From positions 186,001 through 250,000 of the forward strand of contig JAMAHW010000041.1 in the NCBI GenBank assembly GCA_023627715.1: a DNA stretch of 64,000 nucleotides, read 5' to 3'. The DNA comes from Periconia sp. R9002 (taxonomy: Eukaryota > Ascomycota > Dothideomycetes > Pleosporales > Periconiaceae). A model generated the notes under the pieces. That model was not told the DNA's origin. It saw nothing but the letters and a program-made list of their open reading frames with translations, and searched no databases. The position numbers and the translations under genes were made by a program. Positions 17,297 through 54,560 of this stretch are shown here, piece after piece. Each line of letters opens with the position of its first letter. Positions within the stretch are counted from its first letter, which is position 1.

Positions 17297-19480
17297 GAAA
17301 CGGGGATAAAGTCGATATATCTCCACGTTTTTCTCGAAGCTGTGCCTTTTGATCTCCTTTGTCTTGGAGATTTTTGTCTGTTTTAATTCCCTATTTAGGG
17401 GGTTTTATCATTTGATCTCTTGTTCATTGGGGGTCTTTTCATCCTTCTTCTACCTTGTAGGGGTTTTGCTTTGATCTGCCGTTTGTTGAAGGTCTCTTGA
17501 TCCTTCTTCTACTTTGTAGGGGTTTGCTCTTGATCTCATATTCATTAGAGGTCTTTTCATCCTTCTTCTTCTTCTACTTCGTAGGGGTCTTCTCTTGATC
17601 TCCTGCGGCTTGGAGGTCTCCCTGCTCTCCTGCTTAACAGTTATAGCTTTGCTCGCAATTGAGTGCCTTCCTGGTCCTCTTTCGTCCTGGTCCTCGTCTA
17701 TCAGGTTTGGTTTGCGCCCTTTCGAAGCCTCTCATATTGGCTTCGTTCGCTAACACTTCCTTTGTTTCTTCGGACTGAGTTTAAGGGCAACAATATTACG
17801 AGCAAACACCAGGGCCATGCTCTCCCCTCTACTGAAGAAGATGGCGAGTTGAGTGCCAACGACGTCACTGAAGGCGTATCCCACGGCAGCACGATGATAG
17901 ATTCTCCGCAGGAGGCGGTGATTGGTTTGAACGAAAAGCAGGCGTTGGAAGTATATCGACATGGTTAGGAATGGGCCATCGATGTTGGCGGCTACTAGCG
18001 CACGGCCTCTGTTGGGCTCAATGTCACTGGCAAATTGCTAGCGCCCGATGGTCAACAAGATATGATTCACAGCGACCTTTTCTATCAATGTGCCAATTTC
18101 TCACAACTGTCTGGAGAATGATTTCGTGCCTGGGTTGACGGAAATCGTCGTTGGGGTTGAAACTACAATTGGGTGCCTGTGCCTCTCTACCGAAAATGTT
18201 TCTATTTTATTTTCTCATGCTTCTCTATATGGATTGAGAAGGAGCAAAGGAAATGGCTAGTCTTGTACCCCATAATGTATCCTGTCACTCGCAACTCAGA
18301 CTTTCAAAATTGTTTTGCTCTTCTCATTTATGCCTCTGATGTCTAGAGAAGGCTTCGAATCGTTTTGGTAGTTGTTGTTACTTTAAGACGGAGAAATTCA
18401 AGCTCACGAACATCAAAACTGAATGACGCACCACTTTACGCAAGGCGGCAGCAATCTTGCTAAACTATGAGATGGTGGCGACACTGCGAGTGAACATCCA
18501 GTGTCTTTCATCGCATCTGTCGCGGTTTGTGTGTAATTGTTGATAGATTTCTTTGATTTTTCTATAGACTTCTCTTGCTCGTTGATTGCTAGCAAAGTAG
18601 TAGCAATAGGTGAAGCAAACAGCTAGCATGTACATAAAGAGCTCTCTCTCACTATCTGAATATGTTCAGCTTCTTCCTTTGAGCACAGTTAGCCCCTATA
18701 GCATCTCACAGCAACACTCGCGTCTTCCTGAAATATCATCTTGTTATAGAATTGCCCTTGAGTTGAAGACGTGCACATGCCGCCCAGAAGTACCTGGATT
18801 CCTTATATTGTGGAATCAGGAAGCTTGACGTGGGCCATTAATGTGTTCAATGATATTGACGATTGCAAGGCCCAAGTCTCGGCTGGCTGATTTCAATCGA
18901 GAAAGAAAGTGACTATTTTGCCAGTCCCAGACTGCCTGAAATATGCTGCTTGGGGATAAGTTCTCAAAAGATGAAGGCATCGAATTGAGCCTCGAGACGC
19001 AATCTATCAAATTAAATTTAGATATTTTATAGTACCGCAGTACTAAGGGCTACCCCTACCCATACAAAAACAGTATTATATAAAAAAACACAAGAAAACC
19101 GAAAATCGAAACGACAGATTGCCTTCAATTGTACACGCTCATTAGTAAGGACGTCTGTTCAATGTCGTGGTGTCGTTGGGGCATTGTCACTCATCTCACG
19201 GCGTGATGAGTGGATTTCTGTCATTGTCTTGCATTGTATAAAGGCCACGAACTGACTTGATGCTAGTCCCGGCATGACGCTAACCCGAATTTAGGTTAGA
19301 TGATTGAGCAATTGGTTACTCGCTTCACTGCGTTTGCTCCCAGGATTATATATATACACCGACTCCACAGGTCAGTTACTCGCGATCTGATTCCGCCCCG
19401 CCTGCCCACCAACCCAAAGCACCTGCAGTGTTCTCAATCTTCAGTTGCAGGCTACGAACGTGGAAGCAATACACACTACA
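17297..19480. other. 2.2 kb without a supported gene
   Basis: After the tandem array the sequence has short open frames only. One at 17663-17968 (+) has an acidic, protein-like end but no ATG-led domain and no similarity to neighbours. The right end is the promoter of the F-box-like gene at 19481. Confidence 0.4.
17340..17625 (+). repeat. 3' tandem array (about 58-65 base units) with hairpin-forming cores
   Basis: The array starts about 44 bases after the stop of the module-B gene. Imperfect units start with GATCT and carry an inverted repeat: CCCTA-TT-TAGGG in the first, then CTAC-CTT-GTAG, CTAC-TTT-GTAG and CTAC-TTC-GTAG. A second pair, TCTCC...GGAGA or CTCC...GGAG, is present in the first and last units. 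Loops vary while stems are kept. Confidence 0.8.
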
Positions 19481-20973
19481 ATGGATCCCTCGTCTTCGAC
19501 ATGCGCGCCTTCATCTGCGCCTGTGCCTGCGCCTACGCTCGCGGTATCTAGTCGAGGATCAGATCACCACCGCCCTACCGAGGACTTGAATTCACAACAG
19601 CGCTGTGACGAAGAATTAGGCCAACCGGTGGATAATAGTACCAGTAAGTTCGCTGACGCCCACTTTGCAACTAAGTCCCTAACTGGAGCACAGGTCGATA
19701 TTCCAATACTTCCCTTCTGCTCGCATTACCGCTTGAAATAATCCAGATGGTCTTCGGTAGGGTAGACATCAAAGACAAGTGCGCGCTCCGACAGACATGC
19801 CGAGAATTCGAAAAGATACTGTATGATACATTCTTTGACGAGGTTTGCGGAGATCTAAGCATTACGATCCATCCTATTAGTACGGAAAGACTACGATACA
19901 TTGCGGAAATACCACGACTAGCCGCGAAGGTGCATTATGTGAACATCACCACGTACATGCTCCGGGATCATGGTGGTGACTCTATACACTGGCAGGCATA
20001 CGATAGGCTCTGTGTGGAAGAGAATGAAGCAATGAGCCAGGCTGAGGACATCCCTGCCTACTGTCGTTCCATCATGAAGTCTCTGTGGGCCATGCCGAAC
20101 TTGAAAAGTGTGACGGTGTCGGATGTAGACCATCCATGGCGCACCACAACACCGTACATTTTAGGCAAACGCATGATTGAACGGATCACAGGTTGCATTG
20201 TCGAGCAGGATCTACTGGAGGAATTCACACCCGAACAGTGGAAACATCGCCAGAAGATCTCAACACAAATCCTTCCCCATCTCGCGGTCCTGCTTCGGAC
20301 CCGAAACATTGCATTAGACGCCATGATTCGCATACGCGGCGACCTCGAACACCACATACATAATACTGACCATGTGCACACTACACAATTCTTCGCGGCG
20401 TGGCATTTTGTCGCACCGCATATCCGAGATTTCATTGTTGATTGGAACTACGACAAGGATAACGCAGGTACGACGGAGGCCTTGTTGACTGGAGCGGATC
20501 CAGAGACATATTGTATACAGAACTCAGACTTTGGAGTTTTCGCACCGCCATTTCCCTACCCGAGGGTCAAAACCGGTTTCTCCCCAAAGCTCAAGAATTT
20601 GATACTGCGAAATATGGAGATCAAACCAATTTCTTTGATTGATTGCCTACAGACCTGCTCAAGCTGTATCAACATTGAGATCCAAGATGTCATTCTGTTT
20701 TTTGATTCGAACGATTGCATTACTTGGCAGGACGTGTTCCAGGTCATGCAGACGATGCGCTTGAATTCACTCCGTCTGTACGCTCTCGGCCATTACCCTG
20801 ACGATAGAGGCGAAATACCGCAATACGCCAAAACGATCGCGTCAGTATACGACTATGAAATACCCATATTGCTCGCGGAGCTTGTTCAAGATGCTGGCTT
20901 CTCGTGGATCAATCTTGAAAAAGCCGTCAATCACACTAATGAGGTATTGAGGACGCAGACCAAAGTCGGCTAA
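19481..20973 (+). CDS. F-box-like protein, family 1, copy 1
   Basis: Two exons, 19481-19643 and 19694-20973, with a 50-base intron give 480 residues. Exon 1 encodes a Ser/Pro-rich leader. Exon 2 opens with LLLALPLEIIQMVFGRVDIK followed by DKCALRQTCREFEKIL, an F-box-like helical start, and continues into an alpha-helical/LRR-like region typical of fungal F-box proteins (LKNLILRNMEIKPISL). It is clearly paralogous to the gene at 37163-38731: HPISTERLRYIAEIPRL here against HPISTEKLQSIASMPRL there, and WMLRDH/YMLRDH. F-box proteins usually bring substrates to SCF ubiquitin ligases; whether this one binds Skp1 is not known. Confidence 0.8.
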
Positions 20974-21648
20974 TGTCGCGCTATTATGATACAGCCTGCG
21001 TGTCTGTTGCTGGCGCTGGACGGTGTAATTATTGCCAGTATCCATGACGCTGCGTTGAACCGCCTCTCCCTGCCAAACAAAGTGGGTGAGAGCCAAATGG
21101 ATACTGAAAGAGGCAATATACTTCTCACGGTCAATATGACAGGAAATGAGGGTCTCGGTTGCTGTACAATTTGGAGTATTTATTGATCGAGCGGAGGTTT
21201 CTTTGCATGACAGAGAGTGCAGTTAGTTAGTAATAGTTTGTGCCGCGTCAGTGGAACGGAATTAAATACTGGTAATGTCAACCTTCGACTTTTTCCTTTC
21301 AAGCTTTTTAGTTTTGGCGAGAAGGCGTAGTAGTGATGGTATGAACAGCACTGAGGTACTCATTACCAGCATTGTAGTGAATGATACGAAGAATAAGAAA
21401 AATATGAAAATATTCATTGTGCATCACGATAGCACTTGAGTATTGTTGTTTCATGAAGCTAATGAGATTGATCAACTGCCGAGATGGAAACACTCAACCT
21501 GGCACTTACGGTACATGCTTTCGCAATCCATTCGCCCCCTCCCCAAAGCCAGTGCTCTATTCGGGGAAGCGCAAACAAACGTAACAGTATCATGTATTTG
21601 ATAGCAGCCGGTACAGCATGGTTTCCATTAGGAAACATGATTCCTCCC
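20974..21648. other. Intergenic between convergent genes
   Basis: This is 675 bases between the 3' ends of the F-box-like gene (+) and the module A+B gene (-). Apart from the hairpin at 21617-21639, nothing notable is seen. Confidence 0.5.
21617..21639 (-). other. Single inverted repeat just after the stop of the A+B gene
   Basis: GTTTCC-ATTA-GGAAAC forms a 6-base stem, extended outward to 9 pairs with one bulged base. It lies about 10 bases past the stop codon at 21649-21651 and is the only such structure in this 3' flank. Confidence 0.5.
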
Positions 21649-22882
21649 TCAAATCCAAAACTCCAAATCCCTCCAAGTACCCTCAGGGGAGAGGCACGAA
21701 TCCGGTTTTGGGAGAATGACAAGGACGTTGCGGTCCAAAACCTCGTGCTTCCGGAGAAGAATGCAAGCGTGGCTATTCTTAACACAGTTGCGACACGCCC
21801 TCTCCAATCCCTTTTTGTAGACAGGACCTTTCCAGTTATGCACGAATGCCTGGATACACCTGTTCGATCTCAAGTATGTCGACTGAGTGGTAGGATTGAA
21901 TACGGATTGAATGGTTGCCTTAGCTCGGTTGCTTTCAAAGGCGGAGATGAGGTGCTTTGCGACGTCACTAGGCAGATCGGCCAGCGGTTTCCGAGATTGG
22001 CTGTCAGAGTCGTAGACGAACACTTCCAGGAACATCTCGGGCAGGGTTCTGGTAGCAGGAAATCTGACACAATTCGTGGAGGTCGGATGGAACGCATCCT
22101 CCGATTCCCCGCCTTCCACATTTCGGTTGAAGGTAAGATCGGAAAGAGAATCATGTTCCTGAGAACTTGGTAAAAATCTCGATCTTTTTGAGCGAGAACG
22201 CCAGTCTCCTTCGTCTTTACCCTCCAAATCGTTGAATCTCTCTCTAAGTTCGGCTTGCAACTGTTCTTTATCCTGTATAAGACGCTGTCCCAATTCTTGT
22301 GTGAGACGAGGTCCGATTTGTTCCTGCCGATGCTCGATCTGTTCCTGCCGACGTTCCATTTGTTCCTGCCAACGTCCCATTTGTTCCTCCCAATACTTGT
22401 GTTGTTCTAGCTGTTCCAAGCAATACTGTAGCTGTTCCGCGTGACGGTGATCCAACTGAACAAACATGTCGGCTTGATCAGCCTGGGCCTGCTCCCGGGA
22501 TTTGACTGCACGAATAGATGCCCGAATACCCCCATACGAACTTGCAGGATTTGCTCCGGATGAGATTTGGGGAACGTCGGATAGCTCTCCAAGAGGATGG
22601 TCATTCCTTCCCATCTGACCTACATCGACGGTAGGCGAGGAACGGACGGAATCGGTCGTGAATGGTGCTCGATCAGACCCACCCTCATGACTTACTGGAG
22701 GACAAAGAATCTATAAATTGTCAGAGACCCGCATTCAAAGTGAGAAAAGGGATAAATACCGTGCGACGAGGGTGTCGAATACCACACATATCACAGATAC
22801 CCTCGCAAGTCCCAATACTCCGCTGGTCTGGCGGATGGTGCAACCACGGTTGGGCACAGAGCCCGCACACTTGACCTTCCAT
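21649..22882 (-). CDS. Module A + module B fusion protein
   Basis: Exons 22760-22882 and 21649-22710 (49-base intron) give 394 residues. Module A is residues 6-44: CGLC, H, then TCEGICDMCGIRH and a last C encoded just after the splice. The intron falls at the same place and phase as in the gene at 29119. A Gln/Glu-rich coiled coil with WQEQMERRQEQIEHRQEQI repeats follows, then a basic patch (RSRSKRSR) and, from about residue 270, module B ending RACRNCVKNSHACILLRKH and GTWRDLEFWI. Sequence upstream of the ATG still reads FDPQQRAILSKLL, like the pre-finger segment of the paralogues, so an unseen 5' exon or a lost start is possible. A donor-like site at 22695 could give a second intron. Confidence 0.7.
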
Positions 22883-23882: not shown

Positions 23883-25514
23883 TTACTGCTGCAGCGAGGC
23901 ACCAGTTTCCAGAATGCACCCCTCTCCAACGGCCCCAAGAGTCGGGTACCTCAACTTGACACCATTTGCCTCCGCTGGAAGAGTGCGGTTGAAGCTGGTT
24001 ACCCAATTCGCCGTGGTCAGCCAATGCACACGGCCAGACTCGTACAGATAGTTCACCTGGCTTTGTGTAAGATTGTGGTTATACATACATCCTTCAACGT
24101 CATCCTTGTATGGGCAAGCAAACCCCCGTCCCGGAACGATATTGTAGATAGCCGGACAGGTGCCAGTGTCCTGGTCCTTGGCAAGTCCTTGCACCTTGTA
24201 GTTGGAAACTGGTACGTTGTACCTATTTTCCTTGTGGTTCCAGTCATACTTAATGGCTAGTCCTTGTTGTTCTGCCTCTTGGATCGTCCAGCGTGGTTCA
24301 AATCCAGCCCATGGGACTCCACCACCGCGCGGCGTGGATCGCGTCTTTGTCACATCATGAGCCGACCATGGCAAATCATATCCGGCATTGATGACTTGTT
24401 CGATCTCAGTCTTATTCCATTTGTGCAGTGGCTTGCTAGGCCAAATCCGTGGTGGTTCACCAGCCGGTACCCGAGCGTCTGGGGGGTTATGCCGATGACG
24501 ACGGGGGCGTGAACGACGAGTAGCAGAAGGAGGGCCTTGGAATGGTGAATGACTATGGGATTGGTAGGTACGTGGACGCTGAGCTGGAGGGGAGCTGGAT
24601 CCACTATCATCATGCCTGCGTTTCCGTCCGGTTGCGTTGAACAGATCCGACGGCGCCGTTGTATACATATCTACAGGAAGGGCAAGGGAATCATTTCGAT
24701 AAGATCGCGCAGGATTCAAACGGCGGGAAGAATTTTCTTCGCGATGTGTTTCGTCGGATCGTTCGTGGGTAGCCGCATGAGTTGGCACCACCCTGTATGG
24801 CGATGTAGGTGACACCGGCGCGATTAGATCATCGGTTAATTCGACGTCTGGTTCATGTGCATTGGAAATAGCAGTGGCCGCAACAGAGTCCTCGGCATAC
24901 CCCCCTCGAAACATCCATGCCTGTGGAGTAAACATGGGCGGAAAAGGAGCATCCTTGAAGATCCACCCTTCTTCCTTGAGTTTGGTCTCCCAGCTACTGT
25001 CAGGTCGGACCGCGAGACCAACGGGAAAAGCAATACCAATTCCAACATCAAAGTATTGGCGGAGCGTTGCCTCGGTCGCATACACGCGCTCGCAGATCCT
25101 CCCGGGGTTATGCATGATTCCACAGAATCCACACGCCGCCTCGCATGTTCGAAATGTGTTATGGAGTTCTGAATGAAAGCGAACGGGATTCAGGCATCTT
25201 GAGCAGTGGCCATTTGCGTTCTGGTATTCATCAATGTGGGGGAAGTTGGGCTTTGATGTCACAGGCTTCGAGGTTGAAGTAGACGCCCACCGGTGGTAGA
25301 AAGCGGGCGATGCCATACAGAAACCGGTCCGGAGTTTGAAATTGAGCATACGTGATTGGGATCTGCTCTGGCCGTTAGTTTTGTCGTCCACAGTGATGGC
25401 AGTGAAGGCTTGCGGACTGACTTTTGCGACTCTGCCAGGGTATCGACCCGCACCAAAACAACGAGGAATACCTTCTCCGGTCGAAGGAGATGCTTGGGGT
25501 GCTTGACGATTCAT
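23883..25514 (-). CDS. Module A + module C fusion protein, probably frameshifted near its N-terminus
   Basis: The unspliced frame from the ATG at 25514 is 543 residues. Module A is residues 104-141 (CSRC, H, CEAACGFCGIMHNPGRIC). The middle is basic and Ser/Pro-rich, with RKRRH and RRSRPRRHRH as likely nuclear signals. Module C lies at about 453-480: C-x13-C-x8-C-x3-H in GFACPYKDDVEGCMYNHNLT, preceded by GYDLPW. A good intron lies at 25363-25421 (GTCAGT donor, AACTAAC branch, AG). Splicing it recovers the paralogues' segment RFLPPVGVY...KAQLP, but then the frame stops at CAT-TGA, because a run of five G at 25238-25242 is one base too long for the finger frame. So either the gene has a +1 mutation, or the base is an error, or the unspliced form is used. 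Confidence 0.7.
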   Translation of the reverse strand: MNRQAPQASPSTGEGIPRCFGAGRYPGRVAKVSPQAFTAITVDDKTNGQSRSQSRMLNFKLRTGFCMASPAFYHRWASTSTSKPVTSKPNFPHIDEYQNANGHCSRCLNPVRFHSELHNTFRTCEAACGFCGIMHNPGRICERVYATEATLRQYFDVGIGIAFPVGLAVRPDSSWETKLKEEGWIFKDAPFPPMFTPQAWMFRGGYAEDSVAATAISNAHEPDVELTDDLIAPVSPTSPYRVVPTHAATHERSDETHREENSSRRLNPARSYRNDSLALPVDMYTTAPSDLFNATGRKRRHDDSGSSSPPAQRPRTYQSHSHSPFQGPPSATRRSRPRRHRHNPPDARVPAGEPPRIWPSKPLHKWNKTEIEQVINAGYDLPWSAHDVTKTRSTPRGGGVPWAGFEPRWTIQEAEQQGLAIKYDWNHKENRYNVPVSNYKVQGLAKDQDTGTCPAIYNIVPGRGFACPYKDDVEGCMYNHNLTQSQVNYLYESGRVHWLTTANWVTSFNRTLPAEANGVKLRYPTLGAVGEGCILETGASLQQ

Positions 25515-27527: not shown

Positions 27528-28341
27528 ATGGATCACATGAATATTGATCAAGGCCACGGCGCGCGCGCCAACTCAAACCAACCATCTAACCCCTTTCAAA
27601 CCCACAATGTGAGTATATAGCGCCATCCGGTTGAGACTACACAGCTGACTTGAAAAGACACTCCAAAACCCACAGGGCCAGCCCGCACCAGGCGTGAATC
27701 CAACGCCATCATATCCGGCACAATATGGTCAAACGGTTAACGCAAACCAAGTTATCAACATATATTCGGGAGCGCACGTTGTTTTCCAAGGAGGGCAATC
27801 GACGATTGGTGGAAACCAGTCAACGCCAGAAATGCCAGAACCCGCTTACCCTCACGCAGGATCAACCACAGTCGGTCTAGACGAAATATCTGGAGCTGGA
27901 AACTTAAATAGACCTGACCAGAACCATCCCCAACCTCTAATTCTGCCTTCGTATTTTCAGGAATTCCCATGGACAACATCTTTGGGACCAGCGCTACAAC
28001 AGAGGTTGATCGAGCGCTTCTGGCAAGAAAACCCTCAAATTCAACGCTTCTGGCAACGAAACCCCCAAATTCAAATTCAAATTCAACCTCAAACTCGACC
28101 TCAACCTCAACCTCAAACCCAGTCATTCCCATATACAACATCGAGGGGACCAACTATGCAACAGAGGCTGGCCGAGCGCGACCAAGAAAACCTTCAACCT
28201 CAACCTCAACCTCAACCTATGAGGTTTACAACGGCCGTGGGACCAGCTCTCCGGCGGAGGTTGGCCGAGCGCAACCAGGAACATAGCGGACTAGACGGTG
28301 GTTATGACCTTCTAGATACCGCTCCGGACGGGGATACATAG
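27528..28341 (+). CDS. Low-complexity repeat protein, family D, copy 1
   Basis: Exons 27528-27608 and 27658-28341 (49-base intron with GCTGAC branch) give 254 residues. The N-terminus is MDHMNIDQGHGARANSNQ, and the intron follows an AAT codon in phase 0, as in the gene at 44 kb. The second half has three imperfect copies of a unit around TTSLGPALQQRLIERF (TTSRGPTMQQRLAERD, TTAVGPALRRRLAERN) separated by Pro/Gln-rich linkers. It ends YDLLDTAPDGDT, like the original end of the 44 kb paralogue. No catalytic motif is seen. It is followed within 20 bases by a hairpin repeat array. Function unknown. Confidence 0.65.
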
Positions 28342-29118
28342 AATCTCACGCTGGTTCCTCGACGAAAGTCGGGGTTTTGTTATCCACCCGATCCAGGTCA
28401 TACTGGGTTTCTCGTTATTCACCCGATTCAGCTTACGCTGAGTTGCTCTTCACCCGATTCAGCTTACGCTGAGTTGCTCTTCACCCGATTCAGCTTACGC
28501 TGAGTTGCTATTCACCCGATTCAGCTTACGCTCGAGGCGTATTACTCAGGAATCACTCAGTTTTTATGTTTCGTTGAAAAACGAGCGAGAGCAAATACAC
28601 TGAAAAAGAGATAATCTAGAACAACCAATTCAAATCCCACCATGTCATATCTTCTTCATTCTGACCTGTGATGTATGCGAAAACACCACTGGCGATGTTA
28701 TTGACGAGCTATGTTTTAATATGTTTGACTCATGACCTTGGTACGATGTTTGTGACATGGAGTGTCGTCACCTGTATCTACGCAAATTATTCTTGACGTA
28801 TTGGGTAAGACTTCCACGTCAACGAAATCGATATTATGTAACCGTATTTTATTGATGTATTCTTCTAGGCCAGTGATTGAAGTCAACAAATGAACGGTGC
28901 CAAGAACCGAAGTGAAGTGAAACGCAACCTCTCACCTCAAATATATTTAGTTTTTACTAGTCTTATCATTTTACTCACTCACAATCACCTGAAGATCACG
29001 ATCAACTCCCGACATAAATACTAGCCTTTCTCAACCTTCTCACATCACTAGCAGCTACACCGCATCAACCCTTACGCCAATCTCTGGAACGTCTGAGATA
29101 GTCAACCTAATCGAAACC
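28342..29118. other. Intergenic between two + strand island genes
   Basis: After the hairpin array the remaining ~570 bases hold the promoter of the next gene. No other feature is seen. Confidence 0.4.
28346..28545 (+). repeat. 3' tandem array with covarying hairpins after the 27.5 kb gene
   Basis: The array has six units of about 31-35 bases joined by CACCCGAT-type linkers. The unit cores are CGAC-GAAA-GTCG, CCAG-GTCATA-CTGG and TCAGC-TTAC-GCTGA (the last repeated). Stem sequences differ between units but remain self-complementary at the same position. Confidence 0.85.
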
Positions 29119-43037: not shown

Positions 43038-43310
43038 GATAACTCAATGAAGAGCAATAGACTCAATGAAGAGCAGTAGACTCAATGAAGAGCAATAGAC
43101 CCAATGAAGAGCAATAGACCCAATGAAGAGCAACAGACTCATCGAAGAGAAAGAGGCTTATGAAAAAGCGAGGGGCTCATTAAAGAGCATGGAACTCAAT
43201 AAAGGGTATAGAACTCAATGAAGAGCAGGGAACTCAATGAAGAGCAGGGAACTCAATGAAGAGCAGGGAACTCAATGAAGAGCAGGGAACTCAATGAAGA
43301 GCAGCACTCT
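43038..43310. repeat. Left outer minisatellite (about 19-base unit)
   Basis: More than a dozen tandem units of the form ACTCAATGAAGAGCAGGGA, with CTC-N6-GAG conserved inside each. The inner edge (43315-43460) and this array reappear in reverse complement at 47338-47645, making this an arm of a large inverted repeat. Confidence 0.9.
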
Positions 43311-43469
43311 TGTATAATTAAGCTGTGTTAGTAGTATGCTTACGGATTAGCAATCACACTTTTTTCTTATCGAGTGCACCACAACTAAAATTAAAGACAT
43401 ACAGTGAATATCTAAATTAGTAGACTACCTAGGTATTTATTGTTGAAAAACTCAAGCCAAGGGCATTGT

Positions 43470-43880
43470 TGGGAGCAATGGACCGTGAATCGTCAACAGG
43501 CTCGTTGGTGAGCAATGGATTGGACCGTGGATGGTTAATGAGATCGTTAGTGAGCAAGGGGACCGTGGATGGTCAATGTGATCGTTAGTGAACAAGGGAC
43601 CGTTAGTGAATGGTCAATGAGCTCGTGGGTGAGCAAGGCGACCGTGGATGGTCAATGTGCTCGTTGGTGAGCAAGGCGACCGTAGATGGTCAATGTGCTC
43701 GTTGGTGAGCAAGGCGACCGTAGATGGTCAATGTGCTCGTTGGTGAGCAATGGATTGGACCGTGGATGGTCAATGTGCTCGTTGGTGAGCAATGGATTGG
43801 ACCGTGGATGGTTAATGTGCTCGTTGGTGAGCAATGGATTGGACCGTGGATGGTCAATGTGCTTGTCGATGAGTGAGGTA
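43470..43880. repeat. Left inner minisatellite (about 35-42 base unit)
   Basis: The tandem unit carries two small inverted repeats: GCTC-GTTGGT-GAGC and GACC-GTGGAT-GGTC. It ends a few bases beyond the stop of the family D gene, so it lies in that gene's 3' flank. Its reverse complement form recurs at 46960-47190. A 77-codon frame through it merely translates the repeat. Confidence 0.9.
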
Positions 43881-43885
43881 CTCAA

Positions 43886-44760
43886 TTAAAACCAGGAGGA
43901 AAAGGTAGAATAAAGGGCTCGTGGAGTCACGAGCGAGGACGATACACGCCTATTATGTATCCGGCGCGACCTCCAGATCATCTTCTGGCCGAAGCACAGA
44001 AGACGCCGAAGCGACATTCGGATTAACACGCGGATTTTCCCTCGCTCGACGTAGGACTTTTTCGTCGATATCCAGTGGATCTCCCTTGATCGGCGTAGGA
44101 CTTTTTCGTCGATATCCAGTGGATTCTCCCTTGATCGGCGTAGGACTTTTTCGTCGATATCCAGTGGATTTTCCCTTGATCGGCGTAGGACTTTTTCGTC
44201 GATATCAAGCGGGGTTGCCTCCATTAGCTTGTCAAGCGACGTATTTTGGTCGATGGGACGAGGAGTTGCCCTCAGTCGATCTTCGAGCGCCCTGTTTCGG
44301 TCGATGGGACGGGGAGTTGCCCTCATTCGATCTTCGAGCGCCCTGTTTCGATCTTCGAGCGCCCTGTTTTGGTGAGAGGGGTGAGTTCGACTCTCTTGCC
44401 GGCTGTTGTTGGGCCGATCTTGGGGATGGTTTGGACCAAGTCGTAGGTTTTCGACTTCTTGCTCTAGTCTTGCTACTCTAGCTTCCATCTCGCTATTGTT
44501 TTGTATGGTTTGAGCCAGGGTTGGGTTGTTTATGATTGTGACAGGGTTTCCCGCGGTGATGATGAGTGTTATTGGAGTGCCTGACGGGATCAGGTAACGG
44601 CCGGGTAGTAACGGCAAGGCGCCTAAATTTTGTCGGTTTTGCACATTATCCTGTGCCTGGAGGATGTTAGCGCCAGTGTATCAGTATCATACGGCCGTAG
44701 ACTTACATTGGAGGCTTGTTGAAGGAATGGAGGATTGATTCCGGGTGTTGTATTCGCCAT
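43886..44760 (-). CDS. Low-complexity repeat protein, family D, copy 2 (C-terminus frameshifted)
   Basis: Exons 44707-44760 and 43886-44656 (50-base intron) give 274 residues as the frame stands. The N-terminus is MANTTPGINPPFLQQASN, with the intron after AAT in phase 0 as in the 27.5 kb paralogue. Then come a hydrophobic stretch (PSGTPITLIITAGNPVTIIN), a coiled coil (MEARVARLEQEVENLRL) and RALEDR repeats. Near the end are four 45-base repeats encoding NPLDIDEKVLRRSRE. One copy (44071 side) has lost a T, so the end reads out of frame. In the undisturbed frame the protein would end RPEDDLEVAPDT with TAA at 43953-43955, close to the paralogue's ending. Confidence 0.65.
44036..44205 (-). repeat. 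In-gene 45-base tandem repeat with one 44-base copy
   Basis: Four near-identical copies inside the family D gene. Units of 45 bases keep the frame; the junction at about 44070 reads GGATCTCCC where the others read GGATTCTCCC or GGATTTTCCC. Confidence 0.9.
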
Positions 44761-45374
44761 TTTGAAACTGGTAGCGAATTTGACAATGGTGATTTGGTGA
44801 TCAAAGGTTGTGGGCTACGCCTTGAGGTGTTTCGCGCCTTGCGACTGGCACGCTAGTCTATTTTAGGATCTTGGCGCACTGAGCATCAATCTAGGAGCAA
44901 TTGACTCATACGTACAGGGTAGGCGGTGTGTCTGTGGTCTCCTTGTATAGTAACGAATAATATGTCTTTATTTACTTCATTGGTTCTCCTCAAAAGCTGA
45001 CGGTCACCATTTGCTGACTGCCCATTCAAACTAACACTGATTTCAACGGGCGTACATGTCAACTGGTGCCTTGTATGGATAAATCGAGATATTGAGAAGC
45101 ACTAGTTGGGCAAAATGTAGTATTTAATCAAGAGTCTTGTATTCAGTTCCTATTTACTTATATGTATGTTCAAAGGCGTGGGGGTGTGAAGCAGATAATT
45201 GATAGTCATGTGGCCTTGCACATTCACCTTTGCACTGGCAGCACTGCTATGGGCACATGTGTGTAAGAAGAGGCGCTAGCTTCTTGGCAGCCTCCACGCA
45301 ACTTGACGAATTTCCTCGTCTCTCCTTCCCTCCACATACACACATCCCATTCCTTTGCGCCACCACAGCTCACC
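44761..45374. promoter_or_regulatory. Divergent promoter region at the centre of the inverted unit
   Basis: This is 614 bases between the start codons of the family D gene (-) and the chimeric gene (+), and the likely promoter of both. No conserved site is claimed. Confidence 0.4.
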
Positions 45375-46031
45375 ATGGCGAGCTCTCGTCAAAACTTGAA
45401 TTCTTTTACAAATTCAAATCAAGCTTCCAATCCTCAAAGCCCTGCCGCCTCCCATGGCGCAGCCAGCCAGGTCCGTACGACCAAATACAGCGGTTGCAGC
45501 AACGACGAAATTCAAGAAGATTTGCAAATCTTGGAAGACTTTTTGAGTCCCCTCTATAAGCCATTTGCTACAATGGAACAAATACGAGATGTCTACGACC
45601 TTGATTTGCAAGTCGAACTCAAGTACAACCGCGGACCAGAAATCAGCTCTCGATTTAGCGATGCGTGGGAGCGTTGGTGGCATCGTGTCCAGTCCATGCC
45701 AGACAATGTCCGAGCAGAGTATGCTTTCACGTCACTGACTGACGTCACTCATGTCAGTAATCACAGCTACGATGAAATCGATGAAGAATTGAAAAATCTG
45801 GAAGATTTCGTAGGTCCCTCATATGAGGGATCTGCTACAATGGATCAAATGCGGGATACCTACGACCATGACTGGCAGCTCGAATTGAAATACAAACGCG
45901 GACCAGTGATTGCCTCTCGCTTTGACAAAGCGTGGGAACTTTGGCGACAGCTCGTCAACTCCCTGCCCAAAAATATCCAAGCGGATTATCCGTTCATATC
46001 ACTGACTGACACCATCAAGTTCGAAGGATGA
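45375..46031 (+). CDS. Two-repeat protein of unknown function (5' half of a chimeric locus)
   Basis: An ATG-led frame of 218 residues (MASSRQNLNSFTNSNQASNP) with two ~88-residue repeats. Repeat 1 includes DEIQEDLQILEDF, ATMEQIRDVYD and SSRFSDAWERWW; repeat 2 includes DEIDEELKNLEDF, ATMDQMRDTYD and ASRFDKAWELWR. A weakly similar pattern (TMQIVKGFW ... FDPIWDRYRSL) is at the start of the module-C protein at 52982. The stop TGA at 46029-46031 overlaps the next ATG as ATGA. No known family. It may be translated alone or coupled to the next frame. Confidence 0.6.
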   Translation: MASSRQNLNSFTNSNQASNPQSPAASHGAASQVRTTKYSGCSNDEIQEDLQILEDFLSPLYKPFATMEQIRDVYDLDLQVELKYNRGPEISSRFSDAWERWWHRVQSMPDNVRAEYAFTSLTDVTHVSNHSYDEIDEELKNLEDFVGPSYEGSATMDQMRDTYDHDWQLELKYKRGPVIASRFDKAWELWRQLVNSLPKNIQADYPFISLTDTIKFEG

Positions 46032-46873
46032 CTGGACTAGATATTCGCAAACGACCTCAAAATTCCGAAGCCTTCCTTCCTTATCATGTCGCGCATCGGC
46101 ATATGCTCATGGACCTTGCAGTTGTTTTCATCAAGCAGAATCCTCACATTCAGCTTCACGTCGCTGCTGAATTCGATTGCAAGGCAGAGTGGAATAAAGT
46201 ATATCGCACGAAGTGGAAATCCTGGGCACCTTACATATATCGGTTTTTTTGGTCACGACCATCTGAGTGCATGAGTGAGCCACTCATCGATTTGGATTCA
46301 GAAGTTCTCGAAATCTCACATCAATACTATACACAAAATCAATTCTACCCTTTCGAATTTCCCGGCGGAAACCACTCCACCAATTTCCTTCGATTGCGGT
46401 CCCTGCTCTTAATAGAAGTCGAAATCAACCCTATTTACTTCTGTTCATTCCTGTCCCGAACCAAGCTCCGGGACATAGAACTGAACCGCGTTTGTCTTGA
46501 GAACGATCCACCCCAAGGATTCCAGCACTGGGTACACATATGGACTATACTGCGAGCCAATGATCAATTGGAGTGCCTAGCTTTAACTGAGCTGGCATAT
46601 TGGGATTCCCCTGACACCTTTGAATTCGAGGTACCGCAATACGCCATCAACTCCCCCAGTAATGCCTCCTGGGAGGACCGTGTCCGAATCGAGTGCGTTT
46701 TACGTAGTTTAATCGCAACATATCAACCCCACAATATACCCAACCTAGCATCGCAATCCTGGGTTGATTTTAGAGGTGTGCGGTCTGAGATAGCACGACT
46801 AGATGCGGCGGAAGACTCAGAAGTCTCAGAGGTCTCAGAGGATTCTGAAGATTCTGAAGATCCTGAAGATTAA
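46028..46873 (+). CDS. C-terminal half of an F-box family 2 protein, lacking the F-box
   Basis: A 281-residue frame beginning MTGLDIRKRPQNSEAFLPYH. It aligns with the second half of the proteins at 48 and 56 kb from their TGLD motif onward (NPHIQLHVAAEF here, RPHIQLHVTARF there; LRDIELNRVCLE against LRDVELIDVSLE), ending in a Ser/Glu/Asp-rich repeat tail. The F-box half is replaced by the unrelated two-repeat frame, to which it is joined one base out of frame through ATGA. In the full-length 48 kb gene the same GGATGACTGG bases are internal codons. Either a fused product arises by frameshift or reinitiation, or this half is silent. Confidence 0.6.
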   Translation: MTGLDIRKRPQNSEAFLPYHVAHRHMLMDLAVVFIKQNPHIQLHVAAEFDCKAEWNKVYRTKWKSWAPYIYRFFWSRPSECMSEPLIDLDSEVLEISHQYYTQNQFYPFEFPGGNHSTNFLRLRSLLLIEVEINPIYFCSFLSRTKLRDIELNRVCLENDPPQGFQHWVHIWTILRANDQLECLALTELAYWDSPDTFEFEVPQYAINSPSNASWEDRVRIECVLRSLIATYQPHNIPNLASQSWVDFRGVRSEIARLDAAEDSEVSEVSEDSEDSEDPED

Positions 46874-46959: not shown

Positions 46960-47190
46960 TGATTGCTCATCCACGAGCTCATTGACCCTCCACGGTCCAT
47001 TTACCCTTCACGGTCCATTGCTCACCAACGAGCCCATTGACCACCCACGGTCCATTGTTCATCCATGAGCTCATTAACCATTCACGGCCTATTGACCCTC
47101 CACGGTCCATTGCTCATCCATGAGCTCATTGACCTTCCAAGGTCCGTTGCTCCCAACGAGCCCCTCGGCGCCCCTCGGCGCCCCTCGGCC
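46960..47190. repeat. Right inner minisatellite, inverted partner of 43470-43880
   Basis: Units include GCTCATCCATGAGC, GCTCACCAACGAGC, GACCACCCACGGTC and GACCTTCCAAGGTC, all small inverted repeats. Arms vary together (CAT/ATG; CTT/AAG). It lies in the 3' flank of the gene ending at 46873 and ends in three GCCCCTCGGC copies. Confidence 0.9.
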
Positions 47191-47337
47191 ATCATCAAGC
47201 TTTTCAACGATAAATATCCAGGTAGTCAATCAAATTAAATACTCATTGTTTGTTACTCAATGACAGTTGTAGTTCAATTAATAAGAAGAAAAAATATAAT
47301 TGCTAACTGGTAAGCATATTACTAACACAGCTAGCAC

Positions 47338-47645
47338 TGCTCTTCGTTGAGTTCCTCGCTCTTCACTGAGTTCCTTGCTCTTCATTGAGTCCTACTCTTT
47401 ATTGAGTCCTACTCTTTATTAAGTCCTACTCTTTATTAAGTCCTACTCTTTATTGAGTCCTACTCTTTATTGAGTCCTACTCTTTATTGAGTCCTATTCT
47501 TCATTGAGTACCCTGCTCTTTATTGAGTCCTACTCTTCATTGAGTTCCCGCTCTCTATTAAGCTACTGGCTCTTCATTGAGTTCATTGCTCTTCAATGAG
47601 TGCACTGCTCGTTACTGAGTCCATGGCTCGTTACTGAGTCCACCT
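47338..47645. repeat. Right outer minisatellite, inverted partner of 43038-43310
   Basis: About a dozen units of the form CTCTTCATTGAGTCCTA, the reverse complement of the left array unit. The spacer inside it (47200-47337) also matches 43315-43470 inverted, for example GACTACCTGGATATTTAT against GACTACCTAGGTATTTAT when read from the left side. Confidence 0.9.
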
Positions 47646-48437: not shown

Positions 48438-49853
48438 ATGCACAATGTATTCAGTAAGTATGGCTAGGCTTTGCACAAAAAGGCACCCTTGCTAAATTTC
48501 ATGCAGCACGTGCAATCACTTGTTCCCTGCGGGCAACCATGTACCCCAGCCAAAACCGGTATTCACAGTCTCCCAGTCGAACTCACACAGAGGGTCATCG
48601 AGTATCTCGACAACAAGAGTCTTGTAGCTCTCCATTCCACCAGCCCACAACTTCGGGCGCACAGCGAGCGCGACTTCACCCAGCGTCTTTTCACCTCCGT
48701 GACTACTCTCTTGCACCCTATCGGCCTTTCCATGCTCACAGAGTTGAGTCGTTCTGAATATCGCGCCCAAAAAGTCCGGTTCGTAACGATTTATTCAAGG
48801 CCAATACAATCCAGAGAAAATGAGGACGGTGTCACCGCGCTCCAGCCTCTACAAGCCCAAGAGAGCGTCCAATCCCTAGTCAAGCTCTGGAAGGCCCTGC
48901 AGAAATTTCCCAACCTCAGAATCGTTGCTGCAGCCGATTTTGACGATGAATGGGTTATTGATGAGTTCAAGGAGTATCGCCAGAGTAAGCCTTTTGGACA
49001 CCGTCAAATCCAGCGGATGACTGGGCTGGATGTACTGGGGCCCCCCCACAATCGCCAACTTTACTCGCCGAGTCACGCTCGGTTTCGAGAGAACTTGATT
49101 GAGTTTTTGATCTGTTGGGTCCAGAGTAGGCCCCACATCCAGCTTCATGTTACAGCTCGATTTGACCGTCCAAATGAGAATTGGGATGATGACTTTCGAA
49201 AATGGAAAGAATGGGCCCCTTCAGTTCACCGCTTCAGTTGGCTTGGCTCATCCCAGCCTCGAAATCATCCTGTTCTTGAACTCAATCCGGAAATCCTCTG
49301 GGTTAAAGGTGAGAAAGACATGACTTACGAGTTTTGTGATTTACGGATTCTCAGTCACCTGGAAACTAATCCTCTGCTGCGACTGAGACACTTGAAGTTA
49401 CACGAAGTTGTACTTGAGGTGGTGCAAACTATGAACCTAATAACGAGAGGTCTATCTGCACTTCGCACAGTAGAAATGGACGGCGTGGCGCTCATGTTAG
49501 AGGGATTTGCTATGGGTACTTGGGGAATAAATTGCTGGACGTTGGTGTGGTCTGCACTCCGCGAGAATGTAAACCTGAAATCTCTGAGATTATCAAGACT
49601 CTCTTGGATTGAAAGTGCTGAAGACATCCAGCAAGACGCACCAGCATATGCCATCAATTCCAACGAAGTATTCGGTACCTGGTTTAAAAAGAACAGTGCT
49701 GAACACGACGGTTTGCTGGATTGGTGTCTTTTGATTCTCGAAGATGAGTATTCACTGGAGGAACTACCGAATAGACCATCCCATATCTGGGTAGACCTCC
49801 GTGAAGCTCTCAGCTTCCCGGAAAGGTTTCTCGAATACGTTAGGAGTCCTTGA
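48438..49853 (+). CDS. F-box-like protein, family 2, copy 1
   Basis: Exon 1 is only 9 bases (48438-48446, ATG CAC AAT), then a 60-base intron, then 48507-49853; 451 residues. The paralogue at 56 kb also has a 9-base first exon in the same phase, which supports this model over the internal ATG. The F-box-like start is IHSLPVELTQRVIEYLDNKS followed by LVALHSTSPQLRAHSERDF. Downstream are LRR-like segments (LRLRHLKLHEVVLEV, LRTVEMDGVALML) and a shared end PSHIWVDLREAL. Copies of this protein's C-terminal coding sequence appear, decayed, at 50411-50563. A 3' hairpin array follows. Substrate recognition for SCF is the family role, unproven here. Confidence 0.8.
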
Positions 49854-49984
49854 AAATCGGCATAAAGTGATGAAGACAAGAATCCAGTCCCAGCGACTAA
49901 ACATTGGACTTCTACTTATCGCATCTATTGACCGTTGTCTACAGTTCATGGCGCTCTCCGCCATGTTTTGTTTCACTGTCTATT

Positions 49985-50170
49985 TTTCTTCATAGCGTTT
50001 TTCGCTGTGTCCTTGCTTAATCCACCTTCATGGCTTTTTTCGCTGTGTCCTTGCTTCTTTCTCATTCATGGCGTTTTTCGTCGTGTCCTTGCTTCTTTCA
50101 CATTCATGGCGTTTTTCGCCGTGTCCTTGCTTCTTTCACATTTATGGCGTAATACGCTGTGTATGTACTT
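49985..50170 (+). repeat. 3' tandem array with hairpin cores after the 48 kb gene
   Basis: Units of about 46 bases built on CATGGCGTTTTTCGCTGTG and a TCCTTGCTTCTTTCACATT linker. Stem variants are AGCG-TTTTT-CGCT, GGCG-TTTTT-CGCC, GGCG-TTTTT-CGTC (a G-U pair in RNA) and GCG-TAATA-CGC. Confidence 0.85.
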
Positions 50171-50375
50171 TTCTTGCTTTCATAGCGTTATTAGATGTAT
50201 GTTCATGCACCTTTTAGTTTATGGGGTTCATCACTTTCTGTCCTCAAGCTAGCGTTTAATGCTATATTTCAACTCGATCGAACTTCTGTACTCTCCGCTA
50301 TCTGACTCAACGCCGCCTGTGATTAATTAATTTGCGTATCATGATGTGCATTAAAGTAAACAGAGCGACACTCAT

Positions 50376-50377
<2 letters not shown>

Positions 50378-50407
<30 letters not shown>
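50378..50407. repeat. T30 homopolymer
   Basis: Thirty consecutive T lie directly before the duplicated F-box gene end. The length is probably unreliable in assembly. Confidence 0.9.
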
Positions 50408-50410
<3 letters not shown>

Positions 50411-50411
<1 letters not shown>

Positions 50412-50563
50412 GAGACCCTCTCATATCTGGGTAGACACCTCCGTGAAGCTCTCGCGGTCCCGGAAGACACTCTCGAATACCTTAGAAGACGCCGACAATT
50501 TGATAAGGTGCTGAAGACAAGAGTGTAGTCCCAGCGACTACAAATTGGACCTTCACTTCTCCC
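50411..50563 (+). pseudogene. Duplicated 3' end of F-box family 2 copy 1
   Basis: This matches 49777-49918, including about 60 bases past the stop (CCATATCTGGGTAGAC...CCGTGAAGCTCTC and CCCAGCGACTA), with indels that destroy the frame. It contains no hairpin array and begins right after the T30 run. Confidence 0.8.
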
Positions 50564-51006
50564 AGGATTACCGATACCTTGTTTCCTACTAACTCTCACC
50601 ATCGGAGAAACCTGCGGTAATATCGCCGTAACCTTCCCCGCGATCGTGGCGCAACCTCAAATGACCCGGCGATGGTACCCACGCGAGGGTCTCTCCAAAC
50701 GGCCGATCGAGTCACATACATTTCAGCATGGGGAATTTGAATGGGGTAATTGTCTGGGAGCGGCTTGCACATGTTGTTAACCGCATGTGCGTTTATAACA
50801 GTCTGGATGGTGAATGAATTGGGAACTTGTGATATTTATTCATTTGTCAAGCGATTCTTCGTCGTTTACATAAAATTAATACAATGCCCTGAATTCTTAG
50901 AATACACTCATGGATTCTCAAATGCGAGAATTGGCCATTCTCTTGACATGTAGTAATGATATCATTCTAAACCAGAAGCTTGGATCCCACTACACCTTTA
51001 AGTTCC

Positions 51007-51895
51007 TTAGTCTTGTTTAGTTCTTGCTGATGAACCATCACCATGGTGCCGTTTTGACATGCGCTCGTCCGGTGGGCTTGAAGAGCGCCTATGCTTCCTA
51101 CTCGCTCGCGCGGCCGCAAGTTCACGCTCCAGGGTCGCAATTTCCGCTCTGTACCTCCTCTCTACCTCTGAATCCGAGTGGCCCGTTGGGCGGGGAGGTG
51201 GTGTCGTCGGGTATGCTGGATGCGCTGCGAATGCATAAGTCAGAAACTGAGCTGGCGAAAAATAGGGCGAGATACTTGCCTTTCGGTACTCCAAATGGAG
51301 ATTTTGGAAAGTATTCACCGCCCCGCCTCAAAGCATTGTGATATATTGTTCTAGCCTCTGCCCTAGCATTGGTTGAGGCAAAAATCACAGTCGCTGGAAC
51401 GGATTTCGGAGAGGGGCCTCGCAATGACCAAGCAGCTGCAGTAAAAGCAGGCAGCGATCCCAAAGCTGTTTTTGTTCCGCGCTCGATGTATCCGTCCCTT
51501 TGGAGCTTTTCTTCGTCTTTGGGGGTGGGACGGACATGGGTCTCAGGTGAAAGTGGCCCTTTAGGTGCGAGTCTCTGGCGCTCCTTCAGCCATCCAATTG
51601 ACGCATAGAGCTTGGGGCAGCGGCTTCCAACTGGATGTACACTACCACAGAATCCGCATTGTCCCTTGCATTGCCACATTTGTCGCTGATCGGGTGGATG
51701 CTCGCGACGTAGTCCGAAACAACGTCCGCAAGTAGCCTCGGCGCTTTTGCGAGATTCCATCAGAGCAGGAAGTTGATCACTGATTCCTTTGATTGTAGGA
51801 TCAATGTACTCGCCGGGAGGGGGTAGATAGGTGACGGGAGGGTAAGTCGTAGACTCATCGTGCGGTCGGTCGGGTGGTACAGGTAAATTAGCCAT
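51007..51895 (-). CDS. Module-A protein with coiled coil, divergent partner of the module-C gene
   Basis: Exons 51280-51895 and 51007-51224 give 277 residues. The 55-base intron has a GC donor (GCAAGT) and AG acceptor; reading through it would lose the conserved C-terminal type. Residues 23-43 are the pre-finger segment YLPPPGEYIDPTIKGISDQL. Module A is residues 56-93 (CGRC, H, QCKGQCGFCGSVHPVGSRC). RPTPKDEEKLQRDGYIE and LPAFTAAAWSLRG match the 29 kb paralogue. The C-terminus is a coiled coil (SEVERRYRAEIATLEREL) with a basic patch (RKHRRSSSPP). It is transcribed away from the module-C gene at 52574. Function unknown; two zinc sites are inferred from the eight Cys/His. Confidence 0.78.
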
Positions 51896-52573
51896 GACAG
51901 GCTTTTGAATACATACGGCGGTTGAAGTTGGAAGAGAAAAAAGCAGTGACGGGATGGTGCTGGGAAGCTGTAGCTTAGGTCTTGGCGTTGGGTGCAGACA
52001 GCAAACGTAGATGAGCTCACGTGATTGTTGGGTACATAGGTATGTATGTACAATCATCACCTGCAATAGCATTGATTAAGGTACTCTACTCCACGGGATT
52101 AAATGAATTGCGGTCCAACTCAACATTACAAGCGTTCACAGACTTCCAATTAGTACATATCAGTTGATGTATGTATGTATGTAGGTATGCGTGTGCTAAA
52201 AGAAGCTGAGTGAATGTGTAGACGCCACGAAATCTATATCAGCATACATCATGTACATCATACGCAATTGAGGATTGGAAGAAATTAAATCACAGACATG
52301 AAGTGCAAATAACATTTACAGTGATATGATGCCTTATAATGTGAAACCATACACTCAAATCTATTCTACGCCAGGTAGACTTACCGACCTACCCACCTAC
52401 GTACTCAGCGTTAGTGCCACGCTAGTGGCTTTGCCGCCGTACGGCATCAAAAGCTTTCCCACAGTCTTTCCTCCCCTTCTCTTCCTTTGTCCTACACGGT
52501 ATGTTTGAACCTACCCCCTACCTCTCCCTTTCTACCTCTCCCTTTGTCGAGGTAGCCTGCTAACAAAGCTTAG
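51896..52573. promoter_or_regulatory. Shared upstream region of the divergent A and C genes
   Basis: This is 678 bases between start codons, containing ATGTATGTATGT simple repeats near 52.17 kb. A GTATGT donor at 52500 and a GCTAAC branch with AG acceptor at 52572 suggest a 5' UTR intron just before the ATG of the right-hand gene. Confidence 0.45.
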
Positions 52574-54094
52574 ATGGTCGATCAAACAGATCAGAATGCA
52601 GGTCCACCACCATCCAACAGTCAAAACAGTCTAAACAGTCAACTGAGTCCCGGTGACCATGCCCTCTTACAGCAAATACGTGAGCAAATGCGTGAGGAAG
52701 CACTAGAGCTAGAGCGGATTCTCCAACGAATGAAGCTCTGGGGGGAACTAATTGATAACCTTCTGTCCACCGCACCGCTACCCCAATTCCCACAGCAGGC
52801 AGAGTCCAGCCGCTCACAGGAGCCGGTAGACTTAAGCCGCTCGCAGCCCCCACGGTCAAGTCACTCGCAGCAGGCACATTCCAGCCGCTCACAGGAGCCG
52901 GTAGACTCGAGCCGCTCGCAGCCAATACCGTGAAGTCGCTCACAGCCCACACTAATCCCAGAGGATGAACTAACCCCAAACATGAGTCGTTCATTATCTC
53001 AACTCCTTCGTGACGTGGAGAGATGTGAGAAGAACTGGGATCTGGGCACTATGCAAATAGTCAAAGGTTTCTGGACCCATGAAGCACGGTCTAAGATCCG
53101 CACGCACAACAACGGAATGTATCAGTCAACTTTCGATCCTATCTGGGATCGTTATCGGTCACTATTGATGAAAGTGCCCCCGGAGCATCAAGACGTGTTT
53201 CGCGTCCCTCAGGCCCTCCTAAAGTCTCGCTATGCGAATGTGGCAACTGCAGCAGCACAGAATCCTGCACCAAACCCTGCATCATCCAAGAGGAAGGGTA
53301 GGGATGATCCTGCCCCACAGAGTCCAGCGTCCTCCTCTACATCATCCAAAGGGAAAGGGAGAGCAGGACCTGGTTCACAGTCCCATGGGCCTGAACAGAG
53401 GCTTCCTCGCCCGCACGGATCACCACAGAAGCCGCTCATTGAGTGGACAGTGGATGAGGCCGTCCGCGCCATCGCCACCGGTTACGATCTTCCTTGGAGC
53501 AAAGACTGGAAGAAGATGCCAGTGCAAAACTCTGCAGTCAATTGGGACAGGCATCAGCCCAGCTGGAATGCCAACGACTTCCCGACCACAGACGTTCGCA
53601 TTCATTACCGGGTTCAAAATGGCAAGTTTGATACCATGCACATGGGTCCTGCAAAGCTTGGTCTTCCAGCATCTCAGGACCCTGGTATCTGCTATGGTAT
53701 CTATTTGACGCCGCCAGGTAGCAAGTTTGCTTGTCCGTACAAAGATATGCCAGACCAGTGCATGTGGAGCCACAACCTCACGCAAGCGCAACTGGACTAT
53801 TTGTACAAGACCAACCGCATCAGCTTCCTCCTGGCTGCGAACATTGTCACCAGCTCCAGGAACCACCGCCCTGCGGGTAAGCGAACTTTGCTTGAGTATC
53901 CAGACCCAATCCCAACCGCCCAAGGTAACCTCAGTGTGGAGGCAGACAGCACCGACCGTGGCAACCGTCGAGGAGGTGGTCCATTCCCTGGTCCCTCTAG
54001 TCCCCAAGTTTCCGCTTCCGCCCTCTATCGCGCTCCCCGTTCACCTCCGGAAGGCCCTCAGCCCAAGAGGTTGAAGAGGGAGTGGCAGGATTGA
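52574..54094 (+). CDS. Module-C protein, interrupted by one in-frame TGA
   Basis: The frame is open from the ATG at 52574 to 54094 except for TGA at 52931-52933. It could be annotated as two frames, 52574-52933 and 52982-54094 (370 residues). The sequence on both sides belongs to the same Ser-Arg-Ser-Gln repeat tract (DSSRSQPIP, stop, SRSQPTLIPEDE), so one ancestral gene is likely. In order: a coiled coil (LLQQIREQMREEALELERIL), the SRSQ tract, a helical region (TMQIVKGFW ... IWDRYRSLLMKVP), a Ser/Lys-rich linker, then module C: TGYDLPWSKDWKK and C-x13-C-x8-C-x3-H in KFACPYKDMPDQCMWSHNLT, with QLDYLYKTNRISFLLAANIV. This is the same C-terminal domain as in the 25 kb fusion protein. A 3' hairpin array follows. 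Confidence 0.7.
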
Positions 54095-54239
54095 AAGGCT
54101 TTTCGCATGGCCTTGACGGTCCGTGTCTCTTTACTTTACTTTTTTTTTTCTTTTGTTTGTTCCTTCTTCCTAGTCTCCCTGACTCGGTCCCACGTTTTCA
54201 TTCTCGGTTTTGTTAACCGGGTGCTTCTTAGCCCTATAG

Positions 54240-54560
54240 GCTGGGTCCATTTCATCGCATTTCTTGGTCCTTTGGGCCAAGTTTCGTTGCAATTCTTGGC
54301 CATTAGGTCATGTCCCTTCTATCACAATTCTTGGCCATTAGGTCAGGTCCCTTTCTATTCACAGTTCTTGGCCGTACAAGCCAGGTTCCCTATCTTTCTT
54401 GGCTGTCTAGGTCATGTTGCTTCTCATGGTCCTTTGGGTCAGGTTTCGCTGCAATTCTTGGCCATCTAAGTCAGGTCCCTTTCTATCCCAATTCTTGGCT
54501 GTCTAGGTCAGGTTCCTTTCTACCACAATTCTTGGCCGTCTGAGTCGGGTTCGTTTCTTT
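54240..54560 (+). repeat. 3' tandem array with wobble-paired hairpins after the module-C gene
   Basis: About eight units of ~37 bases, for example CTTGGCCATTAGGTCAGGTC. Cores pair as RNA: UGGCC-AUUA-GGUCA, UGGUCC-UUU-GGGUCA, CUUGG...CCAAG and UGGC...GCCA, with G-U pairs. It starts about 150 bases after the stop. Confidence 0.8.

Follow-up and report, generated by a model that had tools for sequence, protein, structure and literature searches.

Tandem hairpin arrays behind six genes in an accessory island of a fungus may be RNA structures kept by shape

Several stem-loops on one mRNA can serve as landing sites, as in the localisation elements of yeast ASH1 mRNA and in Smaug/Vts1 sites. Noncoding minisatellites consist of head-to-tail copies, with private units and variable copy number. 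For the Mimiviridae and pithovirus, the excerpts of PMC4402537 describe a 'hairpin rule' at transcript 3′ ends, a signal without conserved sequence, and according to those of PMC11686069 mono- and dinucleotide repeats mark gene ends across eukaryotes. Here we describe tandem arrays of small hairpins behind six genes in a 64,000-nucleotide window of the Periconia sp. R9002 genome (contig C41:186001-250000; the assembly comprises 42.9 Mb in 267 contigs). The window is this whole stretch; its part from ~16 kb to 58 kb, which holds mainly genes without Pfam families, is referred to as the accessory island. With a probability of roughly one half, we take the arrays to be structured tails (3′ untranslated regions or 3′-end regions) of a subset of the island genes, acting as RNA and kept by shape. 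The observations that speak for this reading are the place and orientation of the arrays past the stop codons, sense-specific stems in four of the six tails, the keeping of pairing between copies, and the absence of such arrays from a sample of the genome. What is new here is that the hairpins appear to behave like RNA. Among the literature matches listed (titles and abstract openings), we recognised no tandem hairpin arrays behind fungal genes.

Genes and tails are labelled by stop codon: A (17296), B (28341), C- (43886, minus strand), C+ (46873), D (49853) and E (54094). Tandem Repeats Finder (TRF) placed tandem arrays 3′ of all six stops, in sense orientation and with short inverted repeats within the units, as had been claimed from the letters alone (the sequence-only reading). 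Array A (17340..17620, plus strand) follows gene A (16076..17296, plus), an orphan of 406 amino acids (aa) without a Pfam match, and alternates hairpins of the GATCTC..GAGGTC and CTTCTAC..GTAGGGG types, with many G-U pairs on its sense strand. Behind gene B (27694..28341, plus; a 215-aa open reading frame (ORF) with no Pfam match), array B (28357..28532, plus) runs from a GAAA-loop hairpin through a related hairpin to 31-nucleotide (nt) units. Gene C- (43886..44644, minus), a 252-aa ORF that contains coding repeats and has neither a Pfam match nor a paralog in the genome, is followed by array C-1 (43468..43885, minus), in which GCUC/GAGC and GACC/GGUC hairpins of four pairs and six-base loops alternate, and by array C-2 (43041..43303, minus), which has 19-nt units with GCUC..GAGU hairpins. 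Their homologues, C+1 (46962..47161, plus) and C+2 (47338..47643, plus) respectively, lie behind gene C+ (46028..46873, plus), a 281-aa ORF. Array D (49947..50215, plus; 38-nt units, a 7-pair stem and a five-base loop, CAUGGCG UUUUU CGCCGUG) follows gene D (48471..49853, plus; 460 aa, F-box match), and array E (54227..54562, plus; ~37-nt units, a 7-pair stem of the CUUGGCC..GGUCAGG type) follows gene E (52982..54094, plus; 370 aa). Periods are ~59 nt in A, 31 in B, 17-42 in C- and C+ (two arrays each), 38 in D and 37 in E; stems hold about 7 pairs in A, D and E, up to 9 including G-U in B, and four in the C tails. The distance from stop to array is 136 nt for A and 77 for B and, by TRF, 23 for C-, 89 for C+, 136 for D and 196 for E, and in several tails single hairpins begin nearer the stop than the tandem array does.

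To set these tails against gene ends elsewhere in the genome, we scored 80 gene ends in 24 other 10-kb stretches (240 kb in all, two of which flank the window). Hairpin arrays were found behind none of the 80 and behind 6 of 18 island gene ends, a difference with p = 1.8e-5 (Fisher), in which a hand-made island list is compared with an automatic sample list. Genes A and B fall below the coding-score threshold of the automatic gene list and were taken from the sequence-only reading; the island ends at 36718, 51122 and 58883 are absent from that list and were added from ORFs, and among the 18 a few have an ORF end as their sole support. Core genes had been said to lack arrays, and indeed none of the four core stops tested (1299, 5552, 10826 and 15002) has one, the difference between 6/18 and 0/4 being not significant within the window alone (p = 0.54). 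On the left side of the window, the Pfam scan assigned core genes to a sodium:solute symporter family protein (first read as DUR3) and a concentrative nucleoside transporter; the others there encode a CTLH-domain protein (first read as RMD5) and an 863-aa protein with a weak peptidoglycan-binding match. A repeat with a TRF score of at least 80 within 600 nt was present at 1 of the 80 sampled ends; it is of CAG type with no hairpin apparent. When TRF was run on 20 of the 10-kb stretches, tandem repeats did occur, none of them comparable as judged by unit stems. Just left of the window (stretch L014, 7080-8025), a 126-base unit is present 7.6 times and is possibly a coding repeat. Elsewhere in the sampled genome (L019, 1415-1538) a 13-nt unit recurs 9.5 times at 98% identity; it offers short possible stems only and lies more than 600 nt from, or not behind, any scored gene end.

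A hairpin score over the 500 nt past the stop gave sense-strand z values of 3.92 for A, 2.95 for B, -1.26 for C-, 1.41 for C+, 2.17 for D and 3.25 for E. On the same score the maximum was 2.35 among the 78 sampled ends with usable flank and 1.26 among the 12 array-free island ends, and the four core ends were negative; three of the six tails (A, B and E) thus lie above the sampled maximum. Array D stands out only over shorter spans (z = 5.92 in 250 nt). The low values of C- and C+ arise because four-pair stems are invisible to this score. Counted directly, hairpins of four pairs and six-base loops number 13 in C-1, 12 in C-2, 10 in C+1 and 13 in C+2, where shuffles have means of 0.8-1.5 and maxima of 4-7.

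In four of the six tails the stems behave as expected of RNA in their choice of strand. With G-U pairs allowed, stems of at least 6 pairs gave sense and antisense scores of 41.6 and 5.6 in A, 35.4 and 0 in B, 36.0 and 11.3 in D, and 39.5 and 0 in E, a difference reached by none of 200 shuffles of each tail. The short hairpins of C-2 and C+2 also favour the sense strand (12 vs 3 and 13 vs 6). Array C-2 nevertheless falls below its shuffles in the strand-stem score (z -1.9 at 4 pairs), since that score needs four Watson-Crick pairs and most C-2 stems hold one G-U. Counted by alignment column over six unit families, distinct pair types comprised 19 G-U, 6 A-C and 13 other (p = 0.007), and a strand-symmetric count over the six tails gave 55 G-T and 28 A-C, with shuffle means of 33.3 and 28.4. 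Folding of the sense strand gave z values of -6.4 (17161-17460), -4.6 (28381-28500), -6.1 (43561-43860, minus), -4.8 (49921-50220) and -5.0 (54181-54360). The pyrimidine contents of tails A (0.654), D (0.640) and E (0.668) are above those of all 79 sampled tails with usable flank (maximum 0.630).

Changes between copies tend to keep the pairing. Identical units were entered once in the unit alignments. Rows left out of family C1 were one unit whose loop is longer but whose stem remains paired, and terminal units that differ in loop length; D was aligned without a stray D-type unit near 54617. In the pair and change counts, B was entered as two distinct units and array A without its CTTCTAC..GTAGGGG hairpins. 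A standard pair was kept by 31 of 51 distinct stem changes, a two-sided change being counted on both sides, where 17.7 were expected from the non-stem mutation spectrum (p = 2e-5). More than one Watson-Crick type was seen at seven pairs in five families, and one pair of D shows G-C, A-U and the intermediate G-U. In the C1 family, covariation was 0.456 against 0.193 in column shuffles, with none of 500 shuffles as high, although the pair swap in C1 may go back to one early event of which many copies were then made. Families C1, C2, D, E and A1 have 91-96% of their cells paired in the chosen register, and at most 57% after sliding.

Several results weigh against an RNA role. The short hairpins of C-1 and C+1 are about equal on the two strands (sense/antisense 13/16 and 10/10), so two of the four C arrays lack sense specificity, and the stems of C-1 are longer on the antisense strand. 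The symmetric count for tail C- alone comes to 5 G-T and 15 A-C, the antisense strand of 17161-17400 folds well too (z -5.3), and the pyrimidine contents of B, C- and C+ are inside the sampled range. These strand-neutral hairpins, together with the occurrence of the C module twice in inverted orientation, are what would be expected if the arrays were DNA-level structures, such as cruciforms or recombination or replication signals, that lie behind genes by chance. We regard this explanation as very unlikely, because stems of at least 6 pairs in A, B, D and E need G-U pairs of the sense strand and are almost absent from the antisense strand, a preference that cruciform DNA would not have, and because C-2 and C+2 lean to the sense strand.

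Also unfavourable are the covariation results outside C1: D, E and A1 are not above their column shuffles and C2 is marginal (36/500), leaving one success in five families. Moreover, the structures were picked on the same sequences that were tested, array copies share history, and the double counting of two-sided changes applies to the 51 changes above. The earlier claim that the arrays are kept as structure is supported within arrays by the sense-strand G-U stems of four tails, the pair-keeping changes and the multiple Watson-Crick types; the lack of a strand preference in C-1 and C+1 and the shuffle tests of D, E and A1 speak against it. The distribution over genes is a further difficulty, since 12 of the 18 island gene ends and several paralogs carry no array; no array follows the paralog of gene E at 23883-25514(-), that of gene D at 56102-57358(+), or those of gene A, one at 21649-22614(-) and one on contig C8. 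The sequence-only reading had proposed that each island gene tends to carry an array, as a shared, putative 3′ untranslated or terminator property of island genes. Carriage of an array applies to the six named genes, one third of the ends examined, and fails for the remainder, so the observation is partly confirmed and holds less generally than first stated.

The private units, the variable copy number, the absence behind paralogs and the failed shuffle tests of D, E and A1 would all suit the main rival, that the arrays are neutral minisatellites. Here inverted repeats would promote slippage and duplication, mutation coupled to transcription (on the non-template strand, C to T and A to G) would produce the sense-strand G-U pairs, and there would be neither selection nor function; the composition bias between strands seen in tails A, D and E would fit such mutation. 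Changes outside the stems of the same units comprise 14 C-to-T, 19 T-to-C, 4 A-to-G and 2 G-to-A, a spectrum without the clear C-to-T excess that transcription-linked damage would leave. This, the surplus of kept pairs over expectation, the pairs with two Watson-Crick types and the lack of hairpin arrays behind the sampled gene ends make the neutral explanation unlikely in our estimate, if still a serious competitor.

We next consider the relations among the arrays, which the earlier reading held to be unrelated in unit sequence. Local alignment of the 15 tail pairs showed this to be so for most tails, but C-/C+ clearly beats its shuffles (362 vs a maximum of 32), and D and E have one unit in common at a marginal level (2 of 100 shuffles as good). 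A common ancestral unit for all arrays was ruled out, as only these alignments, D/E marginally, beat shuffles. Genome searches, which skip simple repeats and very common words, matched the query place alone with arrays A, B, D and E and just the two window copies with array C. The C- and C+ tails are 69% identical over 715 columns, within 46962-47643 and 43041-43873 and with the inter-array linker included. The similarity ends before the coding parts, and the two proteins show no similarity to each other. A homologous tail module thus stands in sense orientation behind two dissimilar proteins, which favours structured tails. The second module may have arisen by copying of a tail from one gene to another, or one coding part may have been replaced after an inverted duplication; both origins would imply that tail and coding part are separable. 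Genes C+ and D, which are distant paralogs (32%), bear unrelated arrays.

If the arrays are structured tails, they would be transcribed in the tails of the island genes, and the RNA would be a pyrimidine-leaning strand on which each array forms from several to roughly twelve small hairpins. Local duplication may have multiplied a hairpin close to the stop, independently in most genes, and the copies may have been kept because a row of them serves as a multivalent docking site or a physical barrier. Such a row would set the fate of the mRNA (its stability, localisation or translation) or the formation of its 3′ end. Vts1/Smaug, Puf and Ssd1 have the target patterns CNGG, TGTANAT and CNYTCNYT, respectively. 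None of these was enriched in the six tails, at least 16 of 200 shuffles being as high in every case (for CNGG, the lowest was 20/200, in B), and no Rfam family matched above its gathering threshold in the whole window. Since most tails have no common unit, none of the three patterns tested is enriched and Rfam gave no match, any factor that reads the signal would need to do so by shape. We can extend this, at a considerably lower probability, to a structural code free of sequence: the mRNAs of a near-private, fast-changing island would be tagged by hairpin arrays that arise gene by gene and are read as shape, possibly by an island factor such as the CCCH-like product of gene E, so that a group is marked by the form of its RNA with no shared motif.

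Were the arrays transcribed and functional, they would represent a gene-tail signal of a nuclear eukaryotic genome whose shape is kept while its sequence is reinvented for each gene, and which is invisible to motif searches. Breaking a stem should then have an effect, which remaking the stem with other letters should cancel, and small duplications in gene tails could rapidly build multivalent RNA elements. If they are neutral, the loci would still allow the effect of transcription on repeats to be tested cleanly.

The proteins of genes A, D and E each have one database relative among ~5.8 billion proteins (for gene A, among the best 8000 candidates scored), in all cases in Periconia macrospinosa (Pleosporales). 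The three relatives are probably on a single contig of 1,324,167 bases, so the island may be common to the two species. Gene A proteins have a C-terminal C-x2-C-x6-C motif and a W-rich tail in common with the distant paralog on contig C8 (stretch L035), which we presume to resemble half of a fungal zinc cluster. Protein E, its paralog at 23883-25514(-) and the Periconia macrospinosa relative have an invariant C-x13-C-x8-C-x3-H (three members); we take this to recall CCCH fingers, unconfirmed by Pfam or solved structures, and against the latter protein E gave two matches, the best with E = 0.51. Within the frame of gene C-, tandem repeats of 45 and 51 bases (44032-44350), both multiples of three, are apparently protein repeats. 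The ORF at 45303-46031 holds a 247-base coding duplication (45497-45743 and 45764-46010, 73%), and its product matches effector-associated domain 4 at a level below threshold. A stretch made up of the 3′ end of gene D and the first part of its tail (49769-49923) recurs ~640 bases downstream at 50409-50564, in pieces 75-89% identical. This copy is preceded by a run of 30 T and has no array, and the similarity ends where array D starts.

How do these arrays compare with described systems? The closest precedent known to us is the hairpin rule of Mimiviridae and pithovirus, which in the excerpts of PMC4402537 likewise involves hairpins at gene ends without conservation of nucleotide sequence. Gene-end hairpins of this kind occur in all six tails, with alignments beating shuffles only for C-/C+ and marginally for D/E, and given this precedent one may ask whether hairpins here mark transcript cutting and polyadenylation in place of a sequence signal. 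We consider such a rule very unlikely. The viral feature is general among genes, whereas the arrays stand behind a minority (6/18 island ends, 0/80 sampled ends); they are tandem arrays of several small hairpins rather than one palindrome, in a fungal nuclear genome and known from DNA alone; and no Pfam match to a viral poly(A) polymerase, other polyadenylation enzyme or hairpin-cleaving enzyme was obtained among the 29 window ORFs, the rest of the genome not having been searched. As generality and the viral enzymes (in these 29 ORFs) fail, we do not file the arrays under the giant-virus rule. Placement near gene ends is a likeness to the repeats of PMC11686069, which according to its excerpts have 1-2 bases, compared with hairpin units of 17-60 nt here. 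From the ASH1 and Smaug/Vts1 elements the arrays differ in lacking a common loop motif, CNGG being unenriched in the six tails. As repeats they are minisatellites, with which they have the tandem copies and the private unit in common; they depart from them in the strand-specific, RNA-type pairing of four of the six tails and in their concentration behind the genes of one island.

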